Assembly (NCBI GenBank): GCA_004764695.1
Contig: SMSO01000036.1
Span: forward strand, 2,020,001 to 2,084,000
Length of the DNA stretch: 64,000 nt
DNA from: Schizochytrium sp. TIO01
Taxonomy: Eukaryota > Sar > Bigyra > Thraustochytrida > Thraustochytriidae
Reading direction: 5' to 3'
Shown: positions 5,789 to 28,195 of the stretch, in pieces
How the letters are laid out: each line of letters begins with the position of its first letter
Position numbering within the stretch: position 1 is the first letter of the stretch
The notes under the pieces: generated by a model
Told to the model about the DNA's origin: nothing
The model's database searches: none
What the model saw: the letters and a program-made list of their open reading frames with translations, nothing else
Position numbers and translations under genes: made by a program

Positions 5789-6713
5789 GTAGTTTAGTTT
5801 AGTTTAAAATACATCTTATTTCTTATAATGTATTTTATGGAATTATGAATGAAGAAAAGACTTTGTTTAATTGTGAAGTGTTTTTTAAAATAAAAAATTA
5901 AAATTATTGTGTTTTTTTTTTTAATTATAGAGTTTTTAATTTTTAATTAAAAAAAATTAAATTATTTTCAATAATTTGATAGTGAGACGGTATTTTATTT
6001 AAAGTATGTTTGTTTATATTTTAATTTTCTATTTGTTTTTAATCAACTATTGTGCTCGTAGCTTCTAAGTATTTTTCAAGTTATTTTTGTTGCCATGACA
6101 ATGTGGTTGGAGTAAGAATAACATCCAATGGGCACACGTACCTTTGGTACATCATGGGAACACGATGAAGTGTTGCTCTAATTCAGCATGCTACAACATC
6201 TATCGTTGTAATGAATTGAAGTTTTCCCTTCGGTCCGAGCAAGTTAGCCAAAGAACCTCAAGACTCCTTCAAGACACATCTCTAGCTAGAGCTAGCTAGA
6301 GTCTCTAGCTAGCTAGCTAGCTACAAACTGCGAAACCCATATTTGCTTTTAATTTACCCATTTTGTCTCTGCAATATCTTTATGAATGCTGATTTCAATC
6401 TGAAGAAATTGCTACGGTCGTTGTCGTTGTTGTTATTGCTGAGGATTCGTCCTTCTTCGCCTCTGGCTTGGGACTCGAGCACTTAATCAATACCGCGACT
6501 CGAAGGCCGCCTTTGCGGACTCGATACGAGTCGAGATCTTGTATCGTGAGAGAAAGGCGGTCCCAAAAGACGAACTTGCGTATCGAGGCGCATCAAACTT
6601 GTCGTTGTGGACAGAGATCTGCCGACGGCTTTGGGACTATCTTTTTTGACGTTGACTTAGAATTTGTTGTTTCAAGAGACTCCAAATTTGTTGCGGGCAA
6701 GCTCAAAGGAGCT

Positions 6714-8333
6714 ATGTTGCCTCAGAGGAAGCTAGCCTTCAGTGGCGTGCTCCTCTTGATAGCGTGCTTATCAAGCTTGCTTGAGACAGTGCAAGCCCTG
6801 AAGCCAAACATCGTCTTTATCCTTGTGGATGATCTTGGATACACCGACTTTGGATACAAGAATGGTGGCGAGATTGATACACCTAATTTAGATGCAATTG
6901 CCCATCGCGGCATTGACTTCACCAGATACTATGTGCACTGCGTGTGCTCACCTAGCAGAGCAGCCCTCATGACTGGCCGTTATTCGCATCACACGGGAGT
7001 TCACAATTGGCTAGTACCTGTTGGCAACATTGGCGTGGGGCTCGACGAAGTCTTCATCAGCGAGAAGATGAACGAAGCTGGTTATGCCACTCATATGGTT
7101 GGCAAGTGGCACCTTGGCCACCACAAGTGGGATTACCTTCCCAATTACAGAGGCTTTGATTCCTACTACGGTATGCTTACCGGAGGTGGTTGCTACTTCA
7201 TGGGCCGTGCCAATGCAGAAGGATTCTGGTATCAGTATATCGAAACCACTGCCCCCAAATGCAATGTGGAATCTTGTGCAAGAATCCCATGGGAAGCCCA
7301 GACCAAGTACTCTACAGAAACATTCAGCGAAAAGGCAGTCGAAGTAATTGATCGTCATGCTGCTGCGTATAACTCCCAGCCACTTTTCCTCTACGTTGCC
7401 TATCAGGCTGTACACGCTGGAGGATGGCAGTTTACTCAAGTGCCCCCGCACTACGTCGACCCCTATTTAGATCGTATGAAGCCCGGCAAGCGCCAGCAAT
7501 TTGCCGGAATGGTGGCTGCCTTGGATTCAGGCATCGGAAACATTACAAGCGCTCTTGAGCGGAATGGCTACACAGACGAAAACACGTTGATTATTGTATC
7601 TACAGATAACGGAGGTCCTATTGAGCCTGTTGACGCAACTGGATCTAGCAACAGACCTTTTAGAGGCGGCAAACACTCCCTATATGAAGGCGGTGTACGC
7701 GGACTAGGCTTTGTTGCCGGTTATGGTATTCAACGTAAGAATACTACCTACGCCGGCCTCATGCACATCACGGACTGGTTTGCAACCCTTGCTGATGTTG
7801 CGGGATATTCATTGGACACCAAAAAGCCACTCGACAGCGTTTCTCACTGGGCCAAACTTTCAGCACCGGAGTCTTTCTCAGAAGAGGACATCCTGGCATC
7901 CCCTATGCGTACCGAAGTCGTCCTTGGTAACTCTTCTGACCATGGTATTGGCTTTGCTATGCTTGTAGATGATGAAGAAGGCAGGCAGTGGAAAATTGTC
8001 ACCGGCACTCCTGGTTTCCCAAACACATGGGGCACGTATAGCACTACTCCTGAAGAGCAGTTTCTCGCTGACAAGAAAGAGGGCGTGCCTTGCCCCAACA
8101 ACTTTTGCCTGTATGAAATCTCAAGTGACCCAGAAGAGCGCCATAATCTGTCTACCGACCCTGCTTATAAACAGGTTCTCAAAAAACTGAAGAAGGTCTT
8201 ATTAGATGAATTTGCAACAAGCCATGACCTCGTTGCCGACTGCGACATCAAACCTGTGTCCAAGGTTGAAGAGCACGTCAATCACGCATGGTGGCCTTAT
8301 TGTGATAGCACAAGTGCTGGTGTAGAGAAATAA
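6714..8333 (+). CDS. secreted arylsulfatase, paralogue 1
   Basis: Type I sulfatase of 539 residues, expected to hydrolyse sulfate esters. The subgroup resembles arylsulfatase B/I/J. M1 begins a typical signal peptide (hydrophobic core about residues 8-26), so the enzyme should enter the secretory pathway. Visible family features are the N-terminal metal-binding pair D39-D40 in a PNIVFILVDDLGY context, the formylglycine motif C78-S-P-S-R followed by AALMTGR, the GKWHLGHHKW segment, and the D298-N299-G metal site. Length is usual for the family. The frame is open 246 bases further upstream, but only from a TTG and without an ATG, so the first ATG is chosen; it gives a clean signal peptide. The second sulfatase lies 964 bases downstream on the same strand and is closely similar throughout, so the two are a tandem duplication. 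The likely substrate is a sulfated polysaccharide, by inference. Activity would depend on a formylglycine-generating enzyme elsewhere in the genome. Confidence 0.93.
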   Translation: MLPQRKLAFSGVLLLIACLSSLLETVQALKPNIVFILVDDLGYTDFGYKNGGEIDTPNLDAIAHRGIDFTRYYVHCVCSPSRAALMTGRYSHHTGVHNWLVPVGNIGVGLDEVFISEKMNEAGYATHMVGKWHLGHHKWDYLPNYRGFDSYYGMLTGGGCYFMGRANAEGFWYQYIETTAPKCNVESCARIPWEAQTKYSTETFSEKAVEVIDRHAAAYNSQPLFLYVAYQAVHAGGWQFTQVPPHYVDPYLDRMKPGKRQQFAGMVAALDSGIGNITSALERNGYTDENTLIIVSTDNGGPIEPVDATGSSNRPFRGGKHSLYEGGVRGLGFVAGYGIQRKNTTYAGLMHITDWFATLADVAGYSLDTKKPLDSVSHWAKLSAPESFSEEDILASPMRTEVVLGNSSDHGIGFAMLVDDEEGRQWKIVTGTPGFPNTWGTYSTTPEEQFLADKKEGVPCPNNFCLYEISSDPEERHNLSTDPAYKQVLKKLKKVLLDEFATSHDLVADCDIKPVSKVEEHVNHAWWPYCDSTSAGVEK

Positions 8334-9297: not shown

Positions 9298-10953
9298 ATG
9301 ATCCTGAAAGCTCTGGTCCTGGCATTTGCTTTGGTGCTTTGCCTTGCTCAGTTTGCGAAAGCTGCTGAGAATAATGGGACGAAACCAAACATTGTATTCA
9401 TCGTAATTGATGATCTCGGCTATGCAGATATCGGCTACCGCAATGACAACGAGATCGATACACCTCACCTAAATTCAATTGTGGGGCGTGGTATTGATTT
9501 GCAACGTTACTACGTTCATACAGTTTGCTCCCCGAGCCGTGCTGCACTCATGACTGGTCGCTTCTCGCACCACACAGGCGTCCATAATTGGCTTCATCCG
9601 ATTGCCAACATTGCTGTCGAACTTGACGAAGTCTTTCTTAGCCAAAAGCTCAAGGACGCTGGCTATGCTACGCACATGGTAGGCAAGTGGCACCTTGGGC
9701 ATCACAAGTGGAGTTACACCCCTACCTATCGCGGTTTTGACACATACTTCGGATACTACACAGGTGGTGGCGACTACTTCATGGGCCGGTGTGACTCAGA
9801 GCGATACTGGTTCCAGTACCTTGATGCTAAAGCGCCAAATTGCAATGAAGAAGAAACCTGTGTACGAATCCCTTGGGAAATCCAGGTTGAATACTCAACA
9901 GAGGTTTTCTCTCGTAAAGCCGTAGAGGTTGTTGAACGCCACGCAGCTCACGAGAGAGACAAACCTCTCTTTCTTTATCTTGCTTTTCAAGCAATGCATG
10001 CGGGCTTTTTCCAACCTAACCAAGTCCCTCCCTACTGGGTGGAACCCTACCTTAAGCGAATGGGACCAGGGCAACGTCGCCAGTTTGCAGGCGCTCTTGC
10101 AGCTGTTGATTCTGCTGTAGGAAACCTCACAGATGCTCTTGAGCGTAATGGGTTTACCGATGAAAACACTTTAATTATTGTATCCACAGACAATGGCGGT
10201 CCTGTTCATGTTGGAGACGCGGTAGGTGCTCGCAATACCCCCTATCGTGGTGGTAAGCACTGCCTCTACGAAGGAGGTGTCCGTGGCGTTGCTTTTCTAG
10301 CGGGTTATGGAATTAAACGCAAGGGTAAATCTTACAGTGCTCTCATGCATATTACCGATTGGTTTGCCACACTAGCTGATGTTGCGGGCTTCTCGCTTGA
10401 GACCAAGCGTCCGTTGGATTCCGTTTCCCATTGGGCACGCCTCTCTGCAGATTCTGATGAGGAACTTGCAGATGCAGAACCTCTGCGTACAGAAATTGCA
10501 CTTGGAAACGTTTCTGATTATGGTTACGGATTTGGCATGATTATCGACGATGATGAAGGCCACCAGTGGAAAATTATTGCTGATTCTCCTGGGTATCCTT
10601 CTGTTCTCACAGAGGAGGACCCTGCATCAGATCCCCACGGCTTGGAAACGAAAGGAAAGTCTTGCCATAATGGATTCTGCCTCTTCGAGCTTACATCTGA
10701 TCCTCAAGAAAGCAATGATCTTGCGGAAGACCCTGCATACGCTTCGATTCTTGCAAAGTTGCGCAAACGCATTCTTCAAGAGATTGAAACGTTCCATGAT
10801 ATTCCCAAAGACTGTGATATCGAGGCCACTCCACGTTATGAACTGCATGTCGGCAATGCTTGGTGGCCGTACTGCCCCGACGATGACGACAGCCACGTTT
10901 CACAAGAAATTGAATTTGCAGCTAAGCAGCATGGATTTCTCGCAGAAAAGTAA
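9298..10953 (+). CDS. secreted arylsulfatase, paralogue 2
   Basis: Second type I sulfatase, 551 residues, colinear with its upstream neighbour over nearly the whole length. It starts with an ATG and a signal peptide (hydrophobic core about 5-18, ending near AKA). The metal-binding pair is D38-D39, the formylglycine motif is C77-S-P-S-R-AALMTGR, and GKWHLGHHKW and STDNGG follow. The C-terminus is about ten residues longer than in the first copy and ends in a polar tail. All catalytic landmarks are intact, so both copies should be active. Differences gather in the signal peptide, the segment near 395-405 and the C-terminus, which could reflect different substrates or simple drift. The likely role is removal of sulfate from extracellular glycans, which is an inference. 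No membrane anchor is seen after the signal peptide. Confidence 0.93.
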   Translation: MILKALVLAFALVLCLAQFAKAAENNGTKPNIVFIVIDDLGYADIGYRNDNEIDTPHLNSIVGRGIDLQRYYVHTVCSPSRAALMTGRFSHHTGVHNWLHPIANIAVELDEVFLSQKLKDAGYATHMVGKWHLGHHKWSYTPTYRGFDTYFGYYTGGGDYFMGRCDSERYWFQYLDAKAPNCNEEETCVRIPWEIQVEYSTEVFSRKAVEVVERHAAHERDKPLFLYLAFQAMHAGFFQPNQVPPYWVEPYLKRMGPGQRRQFAGALAAVDSAVGNLTDALERNGFTDENTLIIVSTDNGGPVHVGDAVGARNTPYRGGKHCLYEGGVRGVAFLAGYGIKRKGKSYSALMHITDWFATLADVAGFSLETKRPLDSVSHWARLSADSDEELADAEPLRTEIALGNVSDYGYGFGMIIDDDEGHQWKIIADSPGYPSVLTEEDPASDPHGLETKGKSCHNGFCLFELTSDPQESNDLAEDPAYASILAKLRKRILQEIETFHDIPKDCDIEATPRYELHVGNAWWPYCPDDDDSHVSQEIEFAAKQHGFLAEK

Positions 10954-16039: not shown

Positions 16040-19000
16040 TTATGCTGCAGCGTTCTTTTGCTTTTGAACTTTAGGACTCAAATCATCTGCATCTGCAGGG
16101 TTGTCCACGTAAACGATGTCACAACGAGAAAGGTTATCGCGCATATCTTGAATTGAGTGATGAACATTATTAAAATCCATGCCTCGACGCACCCAGTGAG
16201 TAAGAAGCTCACTAAGTGACCAGGTTGAGCGACCTAGCTTGATGGGATCGTCAATTTCATCTCCCATAAGTGTTGTGCGGCCAAGACTGACTCTCTTGTG
16301 GTTACGAGGCAAATCCTCCCACTTCAGGTCATGCGCAAATTCAAAGCGATCTTGCCGCTCCCACTCTACCCACTGACCCAGCCAAGTGTTGAACTCTTCC
16401 TCAGTTATATCCAGTACCCGGCGCGATACACGGATGACTTCTTCACCCGGAATGGTACTTCCATAGACCATGAAGTGAGCTGACACTGGAAGATTCAAGG
16501 GTAGCCGGAACTGAATTTCATATTGCAAGAAGACACACACATCATCTACATTTTGAAAGCCCCCACGATCTTCAATACGCTTTTGCGCTGCTTCGTGAAC
16601 ATATTGTAGGTTCATAATCCGGCGACCAAGCGCACGCAGCTTTTCGCGATCACCACGCGCATGCGCAACTGCGCCAACAACCTCAAGCTGGTTCAAAGCC
16701 CAAATAGGCTTATCTTCACACGCATCGATTGCATCAGCCATGCGGGAACAAAGTTCATCTCGTGCCTCGTCATCCTTTGCTACATTCATCAGCATCTCGA
16801 CAACTCGCTCAGCTAACCCACGCCGCGTTGAGGGATTGCGGTATTCACGTGAGTCCCGAAGCATGCTTAGAAAGGTGAGCACACTATCTCTATAAAACGA
16901 GTCAACTTTCTCATCAAGTGGCTTAAGCACATCAAAGTCAATGTCTGACTCTATCAGAAGGCGCATAAGCCGTGGAGGGCGGCCTGTGGCGGCTGCTTTC
17001 CAGAAAAGAACTGCATTTGAAAAGCTTTCAAAGTCTCCGTCATGGCTTAGAGTTTCCAAGCCACCCTCTTCACCAGCGCTGATAAAGTCAAGACCGGCGA
17101 GGTCATTCTCTTCATCCTCTTCACGCTCAAAAACTGCATCGCACATCCTTAGATCTCCTGCAACTATCCCGTCACGGATCCAGTTCATGCACTGTAGACG
17201 ATCAGGGATAGAAAAGTCAGAGGTTATCGCTTGAAGGACCTCTGGATCAATGCCTGTACCTTTGAGCATAAATCTGCGACAAATAATAGCAGGCTCAGTA
17301 GCGGGGTTTCGCCCTATACTACGAACACGAGTTAGCCAATTAGATGGTCTACGCCATGGCCTAGTCCGTTGAGTTTGGGCTTCCTTATACGCGTCTCTTT
17401 GAACAGCAGCATCGATACTCTTTTGGAGCAAAGAGTTCAATATCTCGCGTGGAATTGTTGTGAGTTTGGGAGCTACATTTACCACTAGATAGATATCCAC
17501 ATCTAGGTCAGGGCTGATTTCGCAGAGCTCGGGTAGATTTATTAACGCAAGAGAATTGATGACGACACCAGATGAAATATGTGTCATGCAAGGTAATACA
17601 GAGAGCAGAAGACCATGGTTGATCATGGTGTACCCTAGTTGTGAGTTGTATTGCTGTAAGGCATCCTCTCCACTGGGCTGAGATGCCTCCTCATCAAGAT
17701 CTTCGGTTCCTTCCGAAAGGTAGTCTTCATCAATAGCGTCTTCTGCCTCAAGCTCTTGACTTGATACATCATCATCACGGAAAACATCCACTCCAGGAGC
17801 AATTTCTTGCAAATTTGCCTCATCAACGCCCTCTTCTTCAGCTTCATCTTCCCCTAACTTAAGTTCGTGAATGTCGAGCTCCTCTTGACCCTCGACCCTT
17901 TCATGTATTGTATCAAGCTCGATGTGGCTCCCAGAGCTTTTTGATCTTGAAACACGCGAAGAATTTTGTCTCGGTGGATATAGACGAGTAATAGAGCGCC
18001 GTGCACCGCCTAACAAAGTATTACGACGCAGCCACTTATAATCTACTTGTCTGGAGTTTGCTGTCCACGCTCGCTGGCGGTGACGCACGACTGTTGCGAA
18101 ATGCTCATTCAGATACCCTTCAAGCGTCTTAGAGGAACTTCGCCACTCTACAGGTATACTGTGGTCAAGACGACGCTCAGCTTGCTGTGTGCTTTTGCGC
18201 CGGCTCCTGAGTCGTTTGGCTTTGGAATTGCTCAAAACCGGAGCAGGTTGTTCCAAACGAAACCCAACTGGTAGCGTTTCAAAAGTATCGCAAGAATGTA
18301 TGGCAAACGTTTCTCGTACTTGCATTTTTTTGGGGATGTTTTTGAGAGCACGGCACGAAGCGACAACCAAGTTACCGTGGTAGATACCATTGTCAGGAAT
18401 ATCTACAAGGCTGTCCAAGAACGCAAACAGGCAGTCGCCGTACACAGTAAGACGTTTAGGAATGGACTTGAACATCGGGCATCCGATCAACATAAATGAA
18501 CCAAAGTGTTCTTCTTGAGTAAAATCCTCATCATTTGTAGTAGGAATACCAGCCAGCGCAGGCCAGCCTACTTCAATTTTGTTCTGGCTAAGATCTGATA
18601 GGCCCATGCAATAGCGAATGTCAAGTCCACCTCGACAAATCATTTCCTGGGGCAGTTTTTGCAATGACGGACAGTTACGCAGGCGTACAAAACCAGGTTT
18701 GAATACGTCAGTTGTAATGATCTCAGAATCTCTCCATGATTTAACCAAAGGTAGCTCATCCCCTACAATCATTTTCGATCCGCCAATCTCTTCTAGCGTC
18801 ATACAATGCGAAATATCAAGCATACCGAATACCCGCTCCATCTCGACTTTCCTTAGACGGGGACAAAAGCGGAATGACACGTTGCTGGTTTTTGTGAGCG
18901 TGAGAATGCCGGGGTCTTGCTGACCAACAAGAGAGCCTGGATGCACGATTTCGAGACTTTGCATATGTGTACACATTAATTGTCCCAACACACGAACAGG

Positions 19001-22000
19001 GTGCAATTCACGAATACCAGTGCCAGACAAATTTAGATCACCTGTGACAAATTTCATTGCAAAAGTCTCAAGACTTGAACATCCACTTAAATCAACATCG
19101 CCTGAGCAACTCTGCAACCCAACCACATACCCGTCGTCCCGAACACGCGAGATTAGCCCTGCCATGAAACCATTCTTTAATTCACGCAGTTGCGTGCAGC
19201 TCTGGGCGCTGAGTGATGCAACATGAATTGCAGGAATAACCTCTAAAGATGTACAATGGTCCAACTGCAGTTTAACTCGACCAGGTGCAGCATTAAAAAC
19301 ATCATCTGGAATATGAGCCAAATTTGCGCATTTAGAAAGGTTTAGAGTGCGCAATGTTTGGGGCAGAGGACCTGGAATAGTGCGCAGTCCGGTGCTACCA
19401 CGGAGGTTAAGAATACGTAGGCCACTAAGCATACCAAGATCCAGAGGCCTTGCGATAGGTTCCACATGGCTTGCGTTACCAGAGTTCTGAGAAAGGCTGT
19501 CAGAATGTAAGTCTTCACCAACAAAGTGAGGGCACTCACTCAACTTGAGTTTGTTGCATCCCGTTCGGAGCTTGATATCTTCCAACAGAGGCAGGTTGTA
19601 GAGGCTCAGCTCACCTTCTGCCTCATCTTTTGTTGCCAAACCAACGTCCACGCGCGTGAGATGTTCACAATTATCTACACGCACTAACTGCCAAATTCCA
19701 TGGAGAACAAGACCTTCGAGCATATTGCAGCTATCGAGATACAAATATGACATGCCGCTACCCTCGATGTCACCCAAGTTTTCTACGCCAACGTTCTCGA
19801 GCCTAATTCGAAGATTCAAGCCAGATTTAATGGAGACAACGTCATCAGAGATCTGGGTGAGATTTTGCATACCATTAAGGTACAACTCTGCGTCATCGTA
19901 CTGATCAATGAAGATTGAGTGAGCGAGACGTTCCATAGATGGTGAATCCGTAATTCTTAACAACTGGATTTGAAGCCGACCACCAGCTAAACGTTGCAAG
20001 GAGTTACATTCGACAATTTCCAGGGAGACAGGGAAGTCTGGGCCATCGCTATCCCACAACACATCAATGTTCGGGCAATGTTGGACATTAAGATGCCCAA
20101 CTTCATTTGTAGTGTGCCATTCTGGAAGTGACTTCACAGGTAACCAACGAAGCGTCAGCCTTGGAGTCTCTAGCTTACCTTGAAATTTCTCGATAGGGAA
20201 CCGAAGAAATTCGCATGAAAAGCTTGCCTTTATATCATCAACCCACTCCCGCAGTTGAAGAGTCTCAGTGCTCGAGGTCGTTTCTTCATTATCATCTGCA
20301 TCATTGTCAATCTCATTATTCATGCCATCATCGGACTCATTTCCCGAGTGGTTCGAACCTTCATATACAGGGTTAGTTAAGTTGTTTTGACTATCCAACT
20401 CGCTTGAATTAGCGACTGCTGGAAAATTTCCATCAACCTCGTCAACAATAAGCCCGGGAATTCGTCCGCTGGTATTCTCGAAACCTCCATTAAAGCTTTG
20501 GAGACTCATGATCTGGTCGCGAAACTCAAAAGATCCACGAAGAGAGAATGAGCGCACTACGATAGACCCCTCGCAAAGACGAGGGGGGATCTCGATACCA
20601 CTAATAATCAATTCGTGCGCTGGAGCATGTACTCCGGCGGCGATGGGAGTATTGGTATCAACGCATTGAATCTCAATAGAAGTTTCATTCGGGCTGGTAG
20701 GTTCCTCATCACAGTATAAAACACCTTCACAGAGTCTATGCAAAGAGCCCTGCTCAATTCGTAGGCTCCCTGCTACATGTAAATCGCCATTGCAGAGAGT
20801 ATTCAGTTGAGGACAGCGCTGAATTCTCGTAAATGTACCAAGTGAGAGTTTATCAATGCCGATATAAGCTAGCTGGGGCAGGTATAAAAGCTCGAGTTTC
20901 TGAAGAATTGTGACCTTTGGTGGACAACTTGAAAGCGCTTGGCAGTTTTGCAGTCTGAGCTTCTTCAAGACAATCTCCATATTACTGCTTGATTCCAGAA
21001 ATTCAAGATCAGGACAATTTTCAACTTCAATAATTGCAGGTTCTTCTGCGGAAGTGATTTGATCAAAATCTATGGATTGTAAACCACTGACAGCACTCAG
21101 TTTCTTGTAGTTGGCCTCTAAGGTCTCAATCATTTTCTGCGAGCTTCCTCGGCAGCTTATGACCGAGAGCTTGTTACATGTCCAGTGCGAGAAGTCACCT
21201 GAGGGTAGCGAACAACCTCGAAAGGAAAGGTCTCCGTTCACACTCACATTGGGAGGGAGAGCTGGAATATCGAGATTTTCGAATGAAAAGTTTCCTTCAA
21301 TAGCAATCCTGGATGGCTCCCCATCATTTGATGAAATCAAGCGCGCGTTTTGCTCACCAAACTCGTAGAATACGCGTTCTAAACCATAAAGGTTTTCGGT
21401 ATTCACACCCTTTGCCCACTCCTCCAGGTAAAGCTGTAATTCACTCGACATGCTGAGGCCAGTAGGCCCTTCTCCATCGTTGTCTAGAGGAAGACGCGAC
21501 TCGCCTAGGGTTTGCCAGCCGTCATCTCCTAGACTAAGACTCAAAGCAAGCAAGTGGTCAATTTCCTCAGGGTCTAGAGCGCCTTGCTCCATAAGAGCAG
21601 TAAGAGCATCAAGGTCATCTTGTATTGTGCTTGGATTTGTACCACTCGTATCGATTGCATGCTCTTCTTCAGTACCATTACCTTCAACGTATTCAGGATC
21701 ATGAAGTTGCAACTGTACCTCAAGGTCAGGAGGAGCATCATGCTCATCCAGGGATGCGATATGACTTTGACCGTGGCTTGATCTGCCTCCTCTGCTTGTA
21801 TCAGTTGACCGGCTTGTGCGGCTTGTGCGGCTTGTGCGGCTTGTGCGGCTTGTGCGGCTTGTGCGGCTTGGTGCGGCTTGTGCGGCTGATGCGGCTGGCA
21901 TTGTATTGTGTCTGCATGTCGTTGGCTTGTGCAGGTTGGAGGTCGCCGAATTCGCCATCGTTTGCAAAATGGTCATCTTCAATTTCGTCGTCACTATCAT

Positions 22001-22529
22001 GGTTGTGATGACTGAGTCTATGGCTCGATCTGCCGCTTCTAGTCGAGCCACTGGCTCTGCTGAGTCTGCTCGAGACTCGAGACCTGAGCTCACGCAGCTG
22101 CTCTTGAGCTTCTACTTGGGAATCCAATTGAGCAAGGCCGTTCATATCTTCGAAATTTGTAGAAGGATGCGGATCATTAGACTGTACGGCAACCTCTCCA
22201 GTATATTGATTTTCTTCTTCATGAAGAACTTCACCCTCAGCGTTATTACATTCGATTGCGTCCCCATGAGCAAGGCTTCTACGGGAACTGCGAGCACCAG
22301 ACGTACGCCTCGATGAGTGTGAAGATTCTGCATCTTGAGGAGTACGGTCTTCAACATTGTCCTGACGAGCAAGGCTTCTTCGGGATCTGCGATCACCTGA
22401 GGTGCGTCTTAATGGGGTCGAATGTTCTGCATCTGGGGACGCAGGAGCTTCCACTTGTGGAGTTGAAACAGGCAATGAGCCCCGGCGTTGCAGCATACCT
22501 GCGGCACACATGAGTTTTCTGACGACCAT
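16040..22529 (-). CDS. giant LRR protein with C-terminal NEL-type E3 ubiquitin ligase domain (one frame break)
   Basis: About 2,162 residues if one extra base near 21,870 is removed; as given, the frame starting at the 22,529 ATG stops at 21,801. Order: a Ser/Arg-rich N-terminus with two RRTSG...RRSLA blocks; a Ser-Arg-Thr minisatellite; an acidic helical part; leucine-rich repeats over about 410-1435, with units such as LRTLNLSKCANLAHIPDDVF; an acidic linker (about 1545-1630); and a NEL domain at about 1833-2150. In the NEL domain the catalytic C-x-D is C1937-E-D, followed by an xWALNQLE helix, an RIMNLQYVHEAAQKRI helix and a WLGQWVEWER segment, in the order seen in IpaH/SspH-type ligases. 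That family forms a Cys-ubiquitin thioester and is known mainly from bacterial effectors delivered into host cells. No signal peptide or membrane span is seen. Its function in this organism is unknown; ubiquitination guided by LRR binding is the inference. Confidence 0.88.
16080..17030 (-). other. NEL catalytic domain
   Basis: Part of the LRR protein. The catalytic Cys codon is at 16718-16720, followed by Glu and Asp, giving the C-x-D signature. The helices around it match the NEL order: a helical region before the Cys with a conserved LCSRMADAI stretch, then ALNQLE, then a long helical bundle with LPVSAHFMVYG, then a tryptophan-rich C-terminal helix. The domain has about the length expected for the family (roughly 300 residues). 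Confidence 0.85.
21811..21898 (-). repeat. 9-bp coding minisatellite, site of a frame break
   Basis: Six perfect 9-base units (GGCTTGTGC on the + strand) are followed by one 10-base unit with an extra G at 21870/21871, then two further 9-base units, the second a variant. On the coding strand they give repeated Ser-Arg-Thr. The 10-base unit turns this into Lys-Pro-His for the frame that starts at 22529, which then stops at 21801. The Ser-Arg-Thr frame continues into the LRR-NEL body. Without the extra base the two halves join. Confidence 0.85.
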
Positions 22530-25401: not shown

Positions 25402-28195
25402 ATGGCGGACGCCGGCAACGTCGGCAGCTCAGACTTACGGGAAGAGCCCGAAACCCGCGCTGCTCAGATCGAGAGTGGCAGCGAAGGTACAGCTGAGGCG
25501 GAGTCGGCAACTCCAAGCGCCACAGAGGTCTTTGCGAAGAACAAGAACAGCACTGAGGTGCAGAATTCCGAAACGGAAATGGATACTGCGGAAAAGGACT
25601 CCGTTCAAGCCACGAGTGGTCTTGAAGACAGCGATATCCAGAATCTCGATGACGCCGGAAACGCCGCAATCGACTGCCAAACTGGTCATGAGCAGGAAAT
25701 TGTTCAGGAGCGGAAGGATCTGAAGAGCTCAATGAAACAGAGCTCGGAGGTCCAACATGTGTCAAATGATGACGCAAGTGACGGAAATGGCTTGCTGGAA
25801 ACATCCAATGATCAGGACGAGAATGTAGAAGATTCGGCGGATGCAAATGAGAGCGACGAAGGATCTTGGGACGAACAGGACCCTTATACGCAAGTTCCAG
25901 CGCCATTCAATGGGGATGGTAGCGAGCTTGCACAAGGTCTCCAGACAATGCAACTTGACTCTCCCATGGGCTCAGACGATGAAGAAAATCACGAGGATCA
26001 GTCAAACATTTTGAGCTATGCAGAGGCAGTGGCTTTAGGGAGTAGTATTGATTCCCCTGAGGCTGCAAATACTAGTGGTGGTCAAAGCCCCCCCCCGAGC
26101 CTCAACCAGGACGAGCATGAGCACCAAGAAGAGCAAGTTGAGGTACCTGCGAGCCCGGGTAGTAGTGCTGACTACGCTTCTGCTACTAGCGAGCATGTTC
26201 CATCAGGCGATGATGATGATGATGATGATCATGAACGACCACGACCACGACGACGAGAGTGCCAACGATGTCCAAGGGGACCTCCATATGGAGAATGGTG
26301 TCAACGTTGTAGAAGGAGGCCACAGAGGAGCGGAGGATGAGATCGACGTCTCCAATAGCGTTGAACATGTACCTAAGAATGGAAGTACAATCAACACTGA
26401 TGAACCAAGCTTTACCGATTCTGGCGAAAGCAATGTGCCGATATCAGAGGCTAATGCGCCAGGTCAAAACATCGAAGAAGGACATACAGTTTCGCCTGAT
26501 AATGATCACAGAAACACTGTTGTACTTAAACCTGAGCACGAGCACGTTGAAGAAAATGCCTCCCCGGCAGTCGACAACGGAAACATCTCTAGCGTAAAGG
26601 CACAGGAGCAATCCAAACCACTTGCCTCTTCAGCACCACCTTTACCTGCTCGGGATAGTGAGGAAGAAGGCAATTTAGTTAACTTTGCTAGCCTTCCCGT
26701 GGAGTCAGAGTCGAAGGTTGCAGTTCCTGATGTTGTACCAACTGTAGATGCCACTATGGAAGCAGATATGGAAGATGCCCCACGCATTCCGGAAGACGAT
26801 GATGAAGCTGAACACGTGCATATTCAAGGTGACAACATCATGCAGAGCGATATTTTTGGCAATATTAATGCCAGTGAAGCAAGCAGGTCTGGGCCTGTCT
26901 ATAGTGGATCAGCGCCAGAAAATAACGAAGGCCATACCGGCGCATCTGTGGTCTCAGGTGGTATCAGTGAGGAAGATGCTACAACTAGCTCTGTTTTTCA
27001 GTTTGATTCAGCTAAGCCATGGTATATGTTTGGAAGAGGTACTGTAGATACGTCAGGAGCCTCAGGTGCACCGGCTTGGGAACCAGATGCTTCGAAGTCT
27101 GAGTGTACTTTATGCCGGAGTAAATTTGACTTTTTCCGTCGCAGACATCACTGTCGCATGGATGGCAAAATTTATTGTAAGAACTGTTGTAATCAGTTTC
27201 GGCTCTTGCCTGCACAATTCGGTGTTCGTGAGCCTCAACGTGTATGCAATACCTGCTGCACGAAGTTGGACCCACTTCAAGATGAGCTTGCAGCGACTAT
27301 TAGCAATGCAACAAGAGAGCTTGGTCGCTCAGGTGGCAGCGCTGCTAGTGGCAATTGCGCACCAGGAGCGCATATGGGTAGTGCAAGTAGCACTACCAGT
27401 GATGAGTCAACTCAACACTCGCAGTCATCTAGCTTGTCTTCTCCAGGTGCTCTCTTGGGAGGTAGGGTAAACATTTCCTCACCTGTGAGTTTTTCAATGT
27501 CAGCAGAAATAATGAAAGCAGCAAATGCTGTAGATAATTTCTTTGGAACTTCTCAGCAGTCTATGTTGCGGGATGAATATATTCCTGCAATGTTGCTGAA
27601 GCAGGCCAAGGGGATTGCTTTCTTAACTGTTGTCAAGATGGGTTTCGTTGTGACTACACGCTTTGGCACTGGCCTTGTGGTTGGTCGAGACCGGCATGGA
27701 TCATGGACTGCTCCTAGCGCTATCGGTCTAGCTGGTTTTGGATGGGGTGCACAAATGGGGGGCGAAGTTACAGATTTTGTAATTATTCTCAATACAGAAA
27801 GTGCAGTTGATGCTTTTAGTGGGAACAGCCAGGTTGCCTTGGGATCCCAATTGAGCCTCGCCGCTGGTCCACTCGGTCGGACTGGAGAAGCTTCTGTAAA
27901 TGTAAGCATGGGTGGCGAGAGCCGTATTGCCCCTTCTTATACGTACTCCCAGTCGAAGGGCCTCTTTGTAGGTATCAGTCTTGAAGGTGCTGTCATCCGA
28001 GCTCGCGCGGATGTGAATGAGCGCTTTTATGGAAAGCACTATGACCCGAAGGATATTCTTGGAACTCGAGTACCTCGCCCCAAGGCTGCAGAGCCCTTGT
28101 ATGAGGCTTTACAGCGGGCGTGTGAAAGAGACACCTCGGCCGGTAACGCATCTCCTATGGGCGTGACGCGTGCACCACTCATGGACGAGATCTAA
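25402..28195 (+). CDS. FYVE-SYLF (Ysc84-like) membrane-trafficking protein (one frame break)
   Basis: About 930 residues if one surplus base near 26,234 is removed. The first 555 residues are acidic, low in complexity and probably disordered. A FYVE zinc finger follows (about 555-625): WEPD, CTLC, the basic RRHHCR motif, then IYCKNC and RVCNTCC. At the fourth zinc-ligand position the usual Cys of the RHHCRxCG motif is an Asp (D587, in RMDGK). A Ser-rich linker leads to a SYLF/DUF500 domain (about 700-886), with AKGIAFLTVVKMGFVVTTRFG, GLVVGRD and SLEGAVIRAR typical of the family. FYVE domains bind PI3P on endosomes, and SYLF domains of the Ysc84/SH3YL1 type bind membranes and actin. Together they suggest an endosome or actin-linked trafficking factor, like the FYVE-SYLF proteins of other protists. 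The ATG at 25402 begins the first acidic frame, and the second frame carries both domains. Confidence 0.85.
26205..26262 (+). other. frame break in an acidic GAT/GAC tract
   Basis: The 25402 frame reads a run of Asp and then leaves acidic sequence for Arg/Pro-rich sequence, stopping at 26340. The frame of the FYVE-SYLF half becomes acidic just here. Loss of one A from the AA at 26234-26235 would keep the acidic tract unbroken. No GT...AG intron fits. Confidence 0.75.

Follow-up and report, generated by a model that had tools for sequence, protein, structure and literature searches.

NEL ligases have been described as bacterial enzymes that are injected into host cells to misuse the ubiquitin system, and passages of PMC9320238 place their nucleophile within a C-x-D motif, name Asp339 and Asp397 as important residues of IpaH9.8, assign to the leucine-rich repeats (LRRs) of these enzymes both an inhibitory and a substrate-binding role and report a preference for UbcH5-type E2 enzymes. 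In eukaryotes, a NEL domain tied to an LRR-type domain is mentioned in a passage of PMC7145615 for NLR genes of the green alga Klebsormidium, which amounts to a weak earlier claim at best, and PMC7029713 only lists PF14496, the NEL profile, among search models. Neither NEL ligases in thraustochytrids nor a NEL domain joined to a U-box is reported among the open-access matches listed (titles and abstract openings, with most subscription journals lying outside). Here we describe a gene from a stretch of 64,000 nucleotides of Schizochytrium sp. TIO01 (the window; contig SMSO01000036.1, positions 2,020,001 to 2,084,000, assembly GCA_004764695.1), in which LRR-like repeats, a NEL domain and a U-box-like domain follow one another in a single open reading frame (Table 1). 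Its product is probably an endogenous E3 ligase of a thraustochytrid-type protist, acting through a thioester and belonging to a family of about 18 in this genome; it would work in two steps, with the U-box-like domain docking the E2.

The identity of the NEL domain is certain, as judged from the profile, from sequence matches to solved structures and from the predicted fold. First, PF14496 scored 86 bits on residues 1738-1913 (cut-off 24; E 3.1e-24), and it had no match in any of 14 control genomes. Second, the window protein sequence found solved IpaH/SspH chains (E about 1e-7 to 1e-3), and a family profile built from the 17 members of this genome with an uninterrupted NEL region found 12 solved NEL chains (E 1.1e-17 to 3.5e-24). 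Third, the structure predicted for the NEL core and the C-terminal domain shows the NEL fold in comparisons with PDB chains, conducted with VIA-align on Foldseek's top chains. A preliminary description of this DNA had read a NEL signature at the C-terminus and proposed a profile search and a comparison with solved NEL domains, and both agree with it; the ordered helical bundle that it attributed to this region is likewise predicted, except that the last 60-70 residues lie outside the bundle. Its leucine-rich repeats ahead of the NEL domain are also borne out, with 19 LRR-like cores in the whole protein versus a mean of 2.2 and a maximum of 8 in 200 shuffles; Pfam LRR matches in the window protein are weak and all below the cut-offs. 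Ser/Arg-rich and acidic parts, which it also pointed out, occur in the linker between the repeats and the NEL domain and in the upstream open frame.

The domain contains the motif CEDKPIWALNQLE, whose Cys is residue 1792 of the main frame. The preliminary description had recognised this C-x-D site; its number for the Cys, 1937, is obtained by counting from the ATG at 22529, in another frame. Cys1792 and Asp1794 are retained in 33/33 family sequences and in 16/16 Bradyrhizobium NEL sequences, while the position of Asp1850 is occupied by Asp in 32 of the 33 (by Glu in the other one) and in all 16 Bradyrhizobium sequences. The 33 sequences comprise 17 from this genome, the window gene being counted once, and 16 others; near-copies of the genome's own genes (P0002, P0003, P0006 and P0009), the fragments P0020 and P0021 and a split locus were left out, and P0024, which is identical to C30 in the NEL domain, was kept and hence counted twice. 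The 16 Bradyrhizobium sequences come from 17 loci, L043 having been dropped when the motif search did not match it. C-x-D-K is also present in the excluded P0020 and P0021 and in the first part of the split locus, and the longer motif C-x-D-K-P-x-W-A-L in 15 of the 17 own members. Judging from alignment and spacing, Asp1850 is probably the equivalent of Asp397 of IpaH9.8: the Cys and the second Asp are 58 residues apart in the window protein and 66 in a Bradyrhizobium NEL, and they would be 60 apart in IpaH9.8 with Cys337, which we take to be its nucleophile.

RBR ligases unite an E2-binding RING-like module and a catalytic cysteine in one chain. On the basis of the NEL homology, the conserved catalytic residues, the two predicted folds, the chromosomal family and the relatives in another thraustochytrid, we propose a comparable two-step scheme in which the variable front part (LRR-like here) would hold the substrate, the U-box-like tail, perhaps with the NEL core, would most likely dock E2~ubiquitin, ubiquitin would move from the E2 to Cys1792 with the assistance of Asp1794 and Asp1850, and Cys1792 would hand it to a lysine of the substrate. 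This likeness to RBR ligases, drawn in part from PMC9834252, is an analogy of mechanism only: NEL and U-box replace RING1 and Rcat, and no homology is claimed. With the bacterial NEL enzymes (IpaH, SspH, SlrP and NopM) the protein shares the C-x-D core, the second Asp, the helical fold and the LRRs in front, whereas it differs from them in belonging to a chromosomal eukaryotic multi-gene family with varied front domains, in the motif C-x-D-K-P-x-W-A-L that most members carry and in its U-box-like C-terminus. It is also longer than these effectors, as the preliminary description had stated, yet bacterial NEL frames can be long as well: several of the matches in Pseudomonadota sit within frames of about 1,570-2,320 codons, and long NEL proteins are thus not peculiar to the protist. 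A eukaryote that keeps about 18 NEL genes as its own would be using effector chemistry as normal cell machinery, and if the U-box-like tail recruits the E2, the two-step RING-plus-cysteine design would have been invented independently here.

The tail is predicted to form a beta-beta-alpha-beta unit and could be aligned in each of the 17 own genes whose NEL region is uninterrupted, with Gly, Pro, Trp, Gly and Asp conserved at 90% or more. Its predicted structure has the U-box fold and resembles E2-binding modules; in the beta-beta-alpha-beta order, and in that no zinc-ligand pattern was seen on reading the C-terminal sequences, it is like the U-box ligases (Prp19, E4B/Ufd2 and CHIP) and the U-box fold of AvrPtoB. 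Unlike the U-box ligases, it is fused to a cysteine-type ligase core and lies below Pfam recognition, the Pfam U-box (PF04564) being significant in 0/17 own C-termini. Comparison with true U-boxes by hhalign gave 65.3% and E 5.9e-5, equalled by none of 200 decoys, with a U-box profile made from only five matches of the same genome, of which L050 is weak (24.2 bits); under other settings the score was 22.1 and the probability 16.6%, versus 10.5 and 0.7% for the best of 197 decoys. A U-box core pattern matched 17/17 C-termini, but it had been fitted on those same sequences. The domain has no counterpart in the Bradyrhizobium NEL alignment, and bacterial NEL enzymes carry another, unrelated tail at this place.

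The most cautious alternative, which keeps all else of the proposed scheme, is that the C-terminal domain is merely a structural cap or a dimer surface and that the NEL core recruits the E2 alone, as in bacteria. Although the bacterial NEL domain itself recognises the E2-ubiquitin complex (according to a passage of PMC9320238) and the sequence similarity to U-boxes is weak, the presence of the domain in every own gene with an uninterrupted NEL region, its strongly conserved residues and a predicted fold that matches E2-binding modules make us regard a purely structural role as rather unlikely, and docking of the E2 by the U-box-like tail is the function that we favour.

The module was likely captured from bacteria, as suggested by the distribution of its relatives. 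With a limit of E 0.001, the family profile matched in 9 of 398 sampled Pseudomonadota genomes (best 81.6 bits), and protein searches found 22 proteins, of which the three with an organism name all belong to Hondaea fermentalgiana, a thraustochytrid (Labyrinthulomycetes, Stramenopiles), and none is named as bacterial; as these searches need shared 5-residue words, the absence of protein matches elsewhere is weak evidence. A close bacterial donor was sought in Pseudomonadota genomes, plasmids, and genome and viral contigs, and none was found. Among 369 genomes of the class of the best genome, none beyond that genome passed 1e-10, and neither the 67 pattern stretches in genome contigs nor the 14 in viral contigs were confirmed as related loci. 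A protein search of plasmids returned 166 records (Shigella 129, Edwardsiella 21, Escherichia 14, Bradyrhizobium 1 and Serratia 1), with 22.6-27.3% identity among the 30 of 166 records listed.

A tree with bacterial homologues, as the preliminary description had proposed, was computed from 32 family sequences and 15 distinct Bradyrhizobium sequences (P0019 was too short and was omitted), and it separates the two sets with a support of 100/100. The tree is unrooted, its bacterial side consists of one genus and the bacterial proteins are distant (about 23-27% identity). A NEL domain that arose in eukaryotes and then passed to bacteria would be compatible with such a clean, rootless split; nonetheless, with only thraustochytrids among the named protein matches and with family-profile matches in the Pseudomonadota genomes, we consider this direction improbable and retain capture from bacteria as the likely course. 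Thus, the earlier proposal of a bacterial module captured and reused as an endogenous ligase holds as far as the eukaryotic chromosomal gene is concerned, while the bacterial source and the enzymatic activity are the likely and probable parts of it.

Two features, the multi-gene family and the U-box-like domain after the NEL core, go beyond the preliminary description. PF14496 is above the cut-off at 18 loci, which are spread over nine contigs (C3, C13, C24, C30, C31, C32, C34, C35 and C36), each 2.3-9.8 Mb long; one further match is below the cut-off, and the same 18 loci were recovered when the most divergent copy served as query. The front parts vary: armadillo in C13a and its Hondaea partner P0004, SPRY plus LRR in C34 and C36a, SAM with LRR-type matches below the cut-off in P0003 (the partner of C3a), and TPR with a protein kinase in Hondaea P0005, which is perhaps a fusion by automatic gene modelling. 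The LRR-core count exceeds every one of 200 shuffles in 12 of the 18 own frames, the control for C3a being weakened by a run of X, and does not do so in C13a, C34, C13b, C36b, C35b and C24c. A 23,648-residue open frame reported beside the NEL gene L014 was rejected, as it consists of a long run of N. In the tree, the window gene and C3a form a pair (99/98), and in three cases an own gene is grouped with a Hondaea gene (100/100, 99/99 and 100/99); several members therefore predate the split of the two species.

The NEL region is uninterrupted in 17 of the 18 loci, and in the other one (L025) a frame change divides it into two parts, the second of which contains a stop; this copy would be either a pseudogene or an intron-bearing gene. 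The split copy could be taken as a sign of an inactive remnant family that is retained for binding alone. This is very improbable in view of the C-x-D kept in all 33 family sequences compared and of synonymous change far above replacement change: in the 12 closest paralogue pairs, pS is 0.76-0.91 (saturated) and pN 0.23-0.37, which points to purifying selection on the family, although no numeric dN/dS can be obtained from saturated synonymous sites. For comparison, the genome holds 19 HECT matches, 26 E2 matches and 9 U-box matches (limit E 1), of which eight exceed the cut-off; these figures refer to matches rather than genes and are minimum values. As a tentative extension of the proposed ligase function, the family might represent a core of bacterial-effector type turned into a diversified, U-box-fused two-step ligase system of HECT size, a parallel to RBR enzymes built of unrelated parts, whose varied front ends (LRR, SPRY, armadillo, SAM and TPR) would suit diversified recognition receptors directed, for instance, at bacteria or viruses inside the cell. 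In Aurantiochytrium limacinum, one gene was shown to be essential for carotenoids (PMC10016063); close relatives are therefore probably genetically tractable, and this would make the NEL family testable.

The gene belongs to a eukaryotic chromosome. The assembly totals 64 Mb in 37 contigs; the contig that carries the window measures 2.7 Mb, and the window itself contains no N. As the preliminary description had noted, the gene is surrounded by eukaryotic genes, including a FYVE zinc finger fused to a Ysc84 domain and a neighbour with HA2/OB helicase-associated domains (Pfam); at E 1e-4, Pfam had no match in 4 of the 10 neighbouring frames scanned. Codon usage of the NEL gene correlates with that of six neighbours (r 0.83), compared to -0.14 for a Bradyrhizobium NEL gene and -0.10 and 0.39 for the two wrong frames of the NEL gene, with single neighbours against the rest at 0.45-0.70 and 16 own NEL genes at 0.57-0.83. 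P0002, from a 7.8-kb contig of another source (code lgn), is 99.7% identical to the window protein over 1850 residues, and P0003, P0006 and P0009, also from other sources, match other family members at 98.3-99.8%, P0009 under an MMETSP transcript name. Bacterial contamination or a chimeric join with bacterial DNA, which might be suspected for a family otherwise described as bacterial effectors (PMC9320238) and which the preliminary description had named as grounds against its reading, is refuted for practical purposes by the 18 loci on long contigs, the eukaryotic neighbours, the N-free window, the neighbour-like codon usage, the copy from a second source, the Hondaea relatives with eukaryotic domains and the lack of any match named as bacterial among the 22 proteins, three of which bear an organism name. 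The protein is thus a NEL ligase encoded on a eukaryotic chromosome and not, as bacterial effectors are, by a bacterium.

Table 1. Positions of the features in the window and, where a contig is named, elsewhere in the genome
Feature	Positions	Strand	Remarks
Main open reading frame	16040..22093	-	2017 residues; LRR-like repeats, NEL and U-box-like domain
Upstream open frame	21801..22529	-	begins with ATG at 22529; overlaps main frame; Ser/Arg-rich and acidic
9-bp tandem repeat	21810..21896	-	9.6 copies, where both frames overlap; Arg-Thr-Ser repeats in main frame
LRR-like repeats	18269..21031	-	residues about 355-1275; presumed substrate-binding part
Linker	17594..18226	-	residues about 1290-1500; basic Ser/Arg-rich, then acidic
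NEL domain	16355..16882	-	residues 1738-1913; PF14496 match; profile and predicted fold
Cys1792	16718..16720	-	predicted catalytic Cys of C-x-D
Asp1794	16712..16714	-	Asp of C-x-D
Asp1850	16544..16546	-	candidate counterpart of second catalytic Asp in bacterial NEL
U-box-like domain	16112..16285	-	residues about 1937-1994
FYVE zinc finger fused to Ysc84 actin-regulator domain	26048-28195	+	neighbour gene
Two sulfatase genes in tandem	6468-8333 and 9298-10953	+	neighbour genes
Three NEL genes within 17 kb	C24:1949952-1966773		two one way, one opposite
Split NEL locus L025	C31:2872556-2873105		frame change; stop in second part

The upstream frame, presumably part of the gene, probably supplies the true N-terminus of the protein in a different frame; this placement is tentative because the frame that begins with the upstream ATG overlaps the main frame and a 9-bp repeat lies in the overlap. 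The start of P0002, a predicted protein, corresponds to main-frame residue 168. A change in the length of the 9-bp repeat would switch the frame of the N-terminus of the protein.
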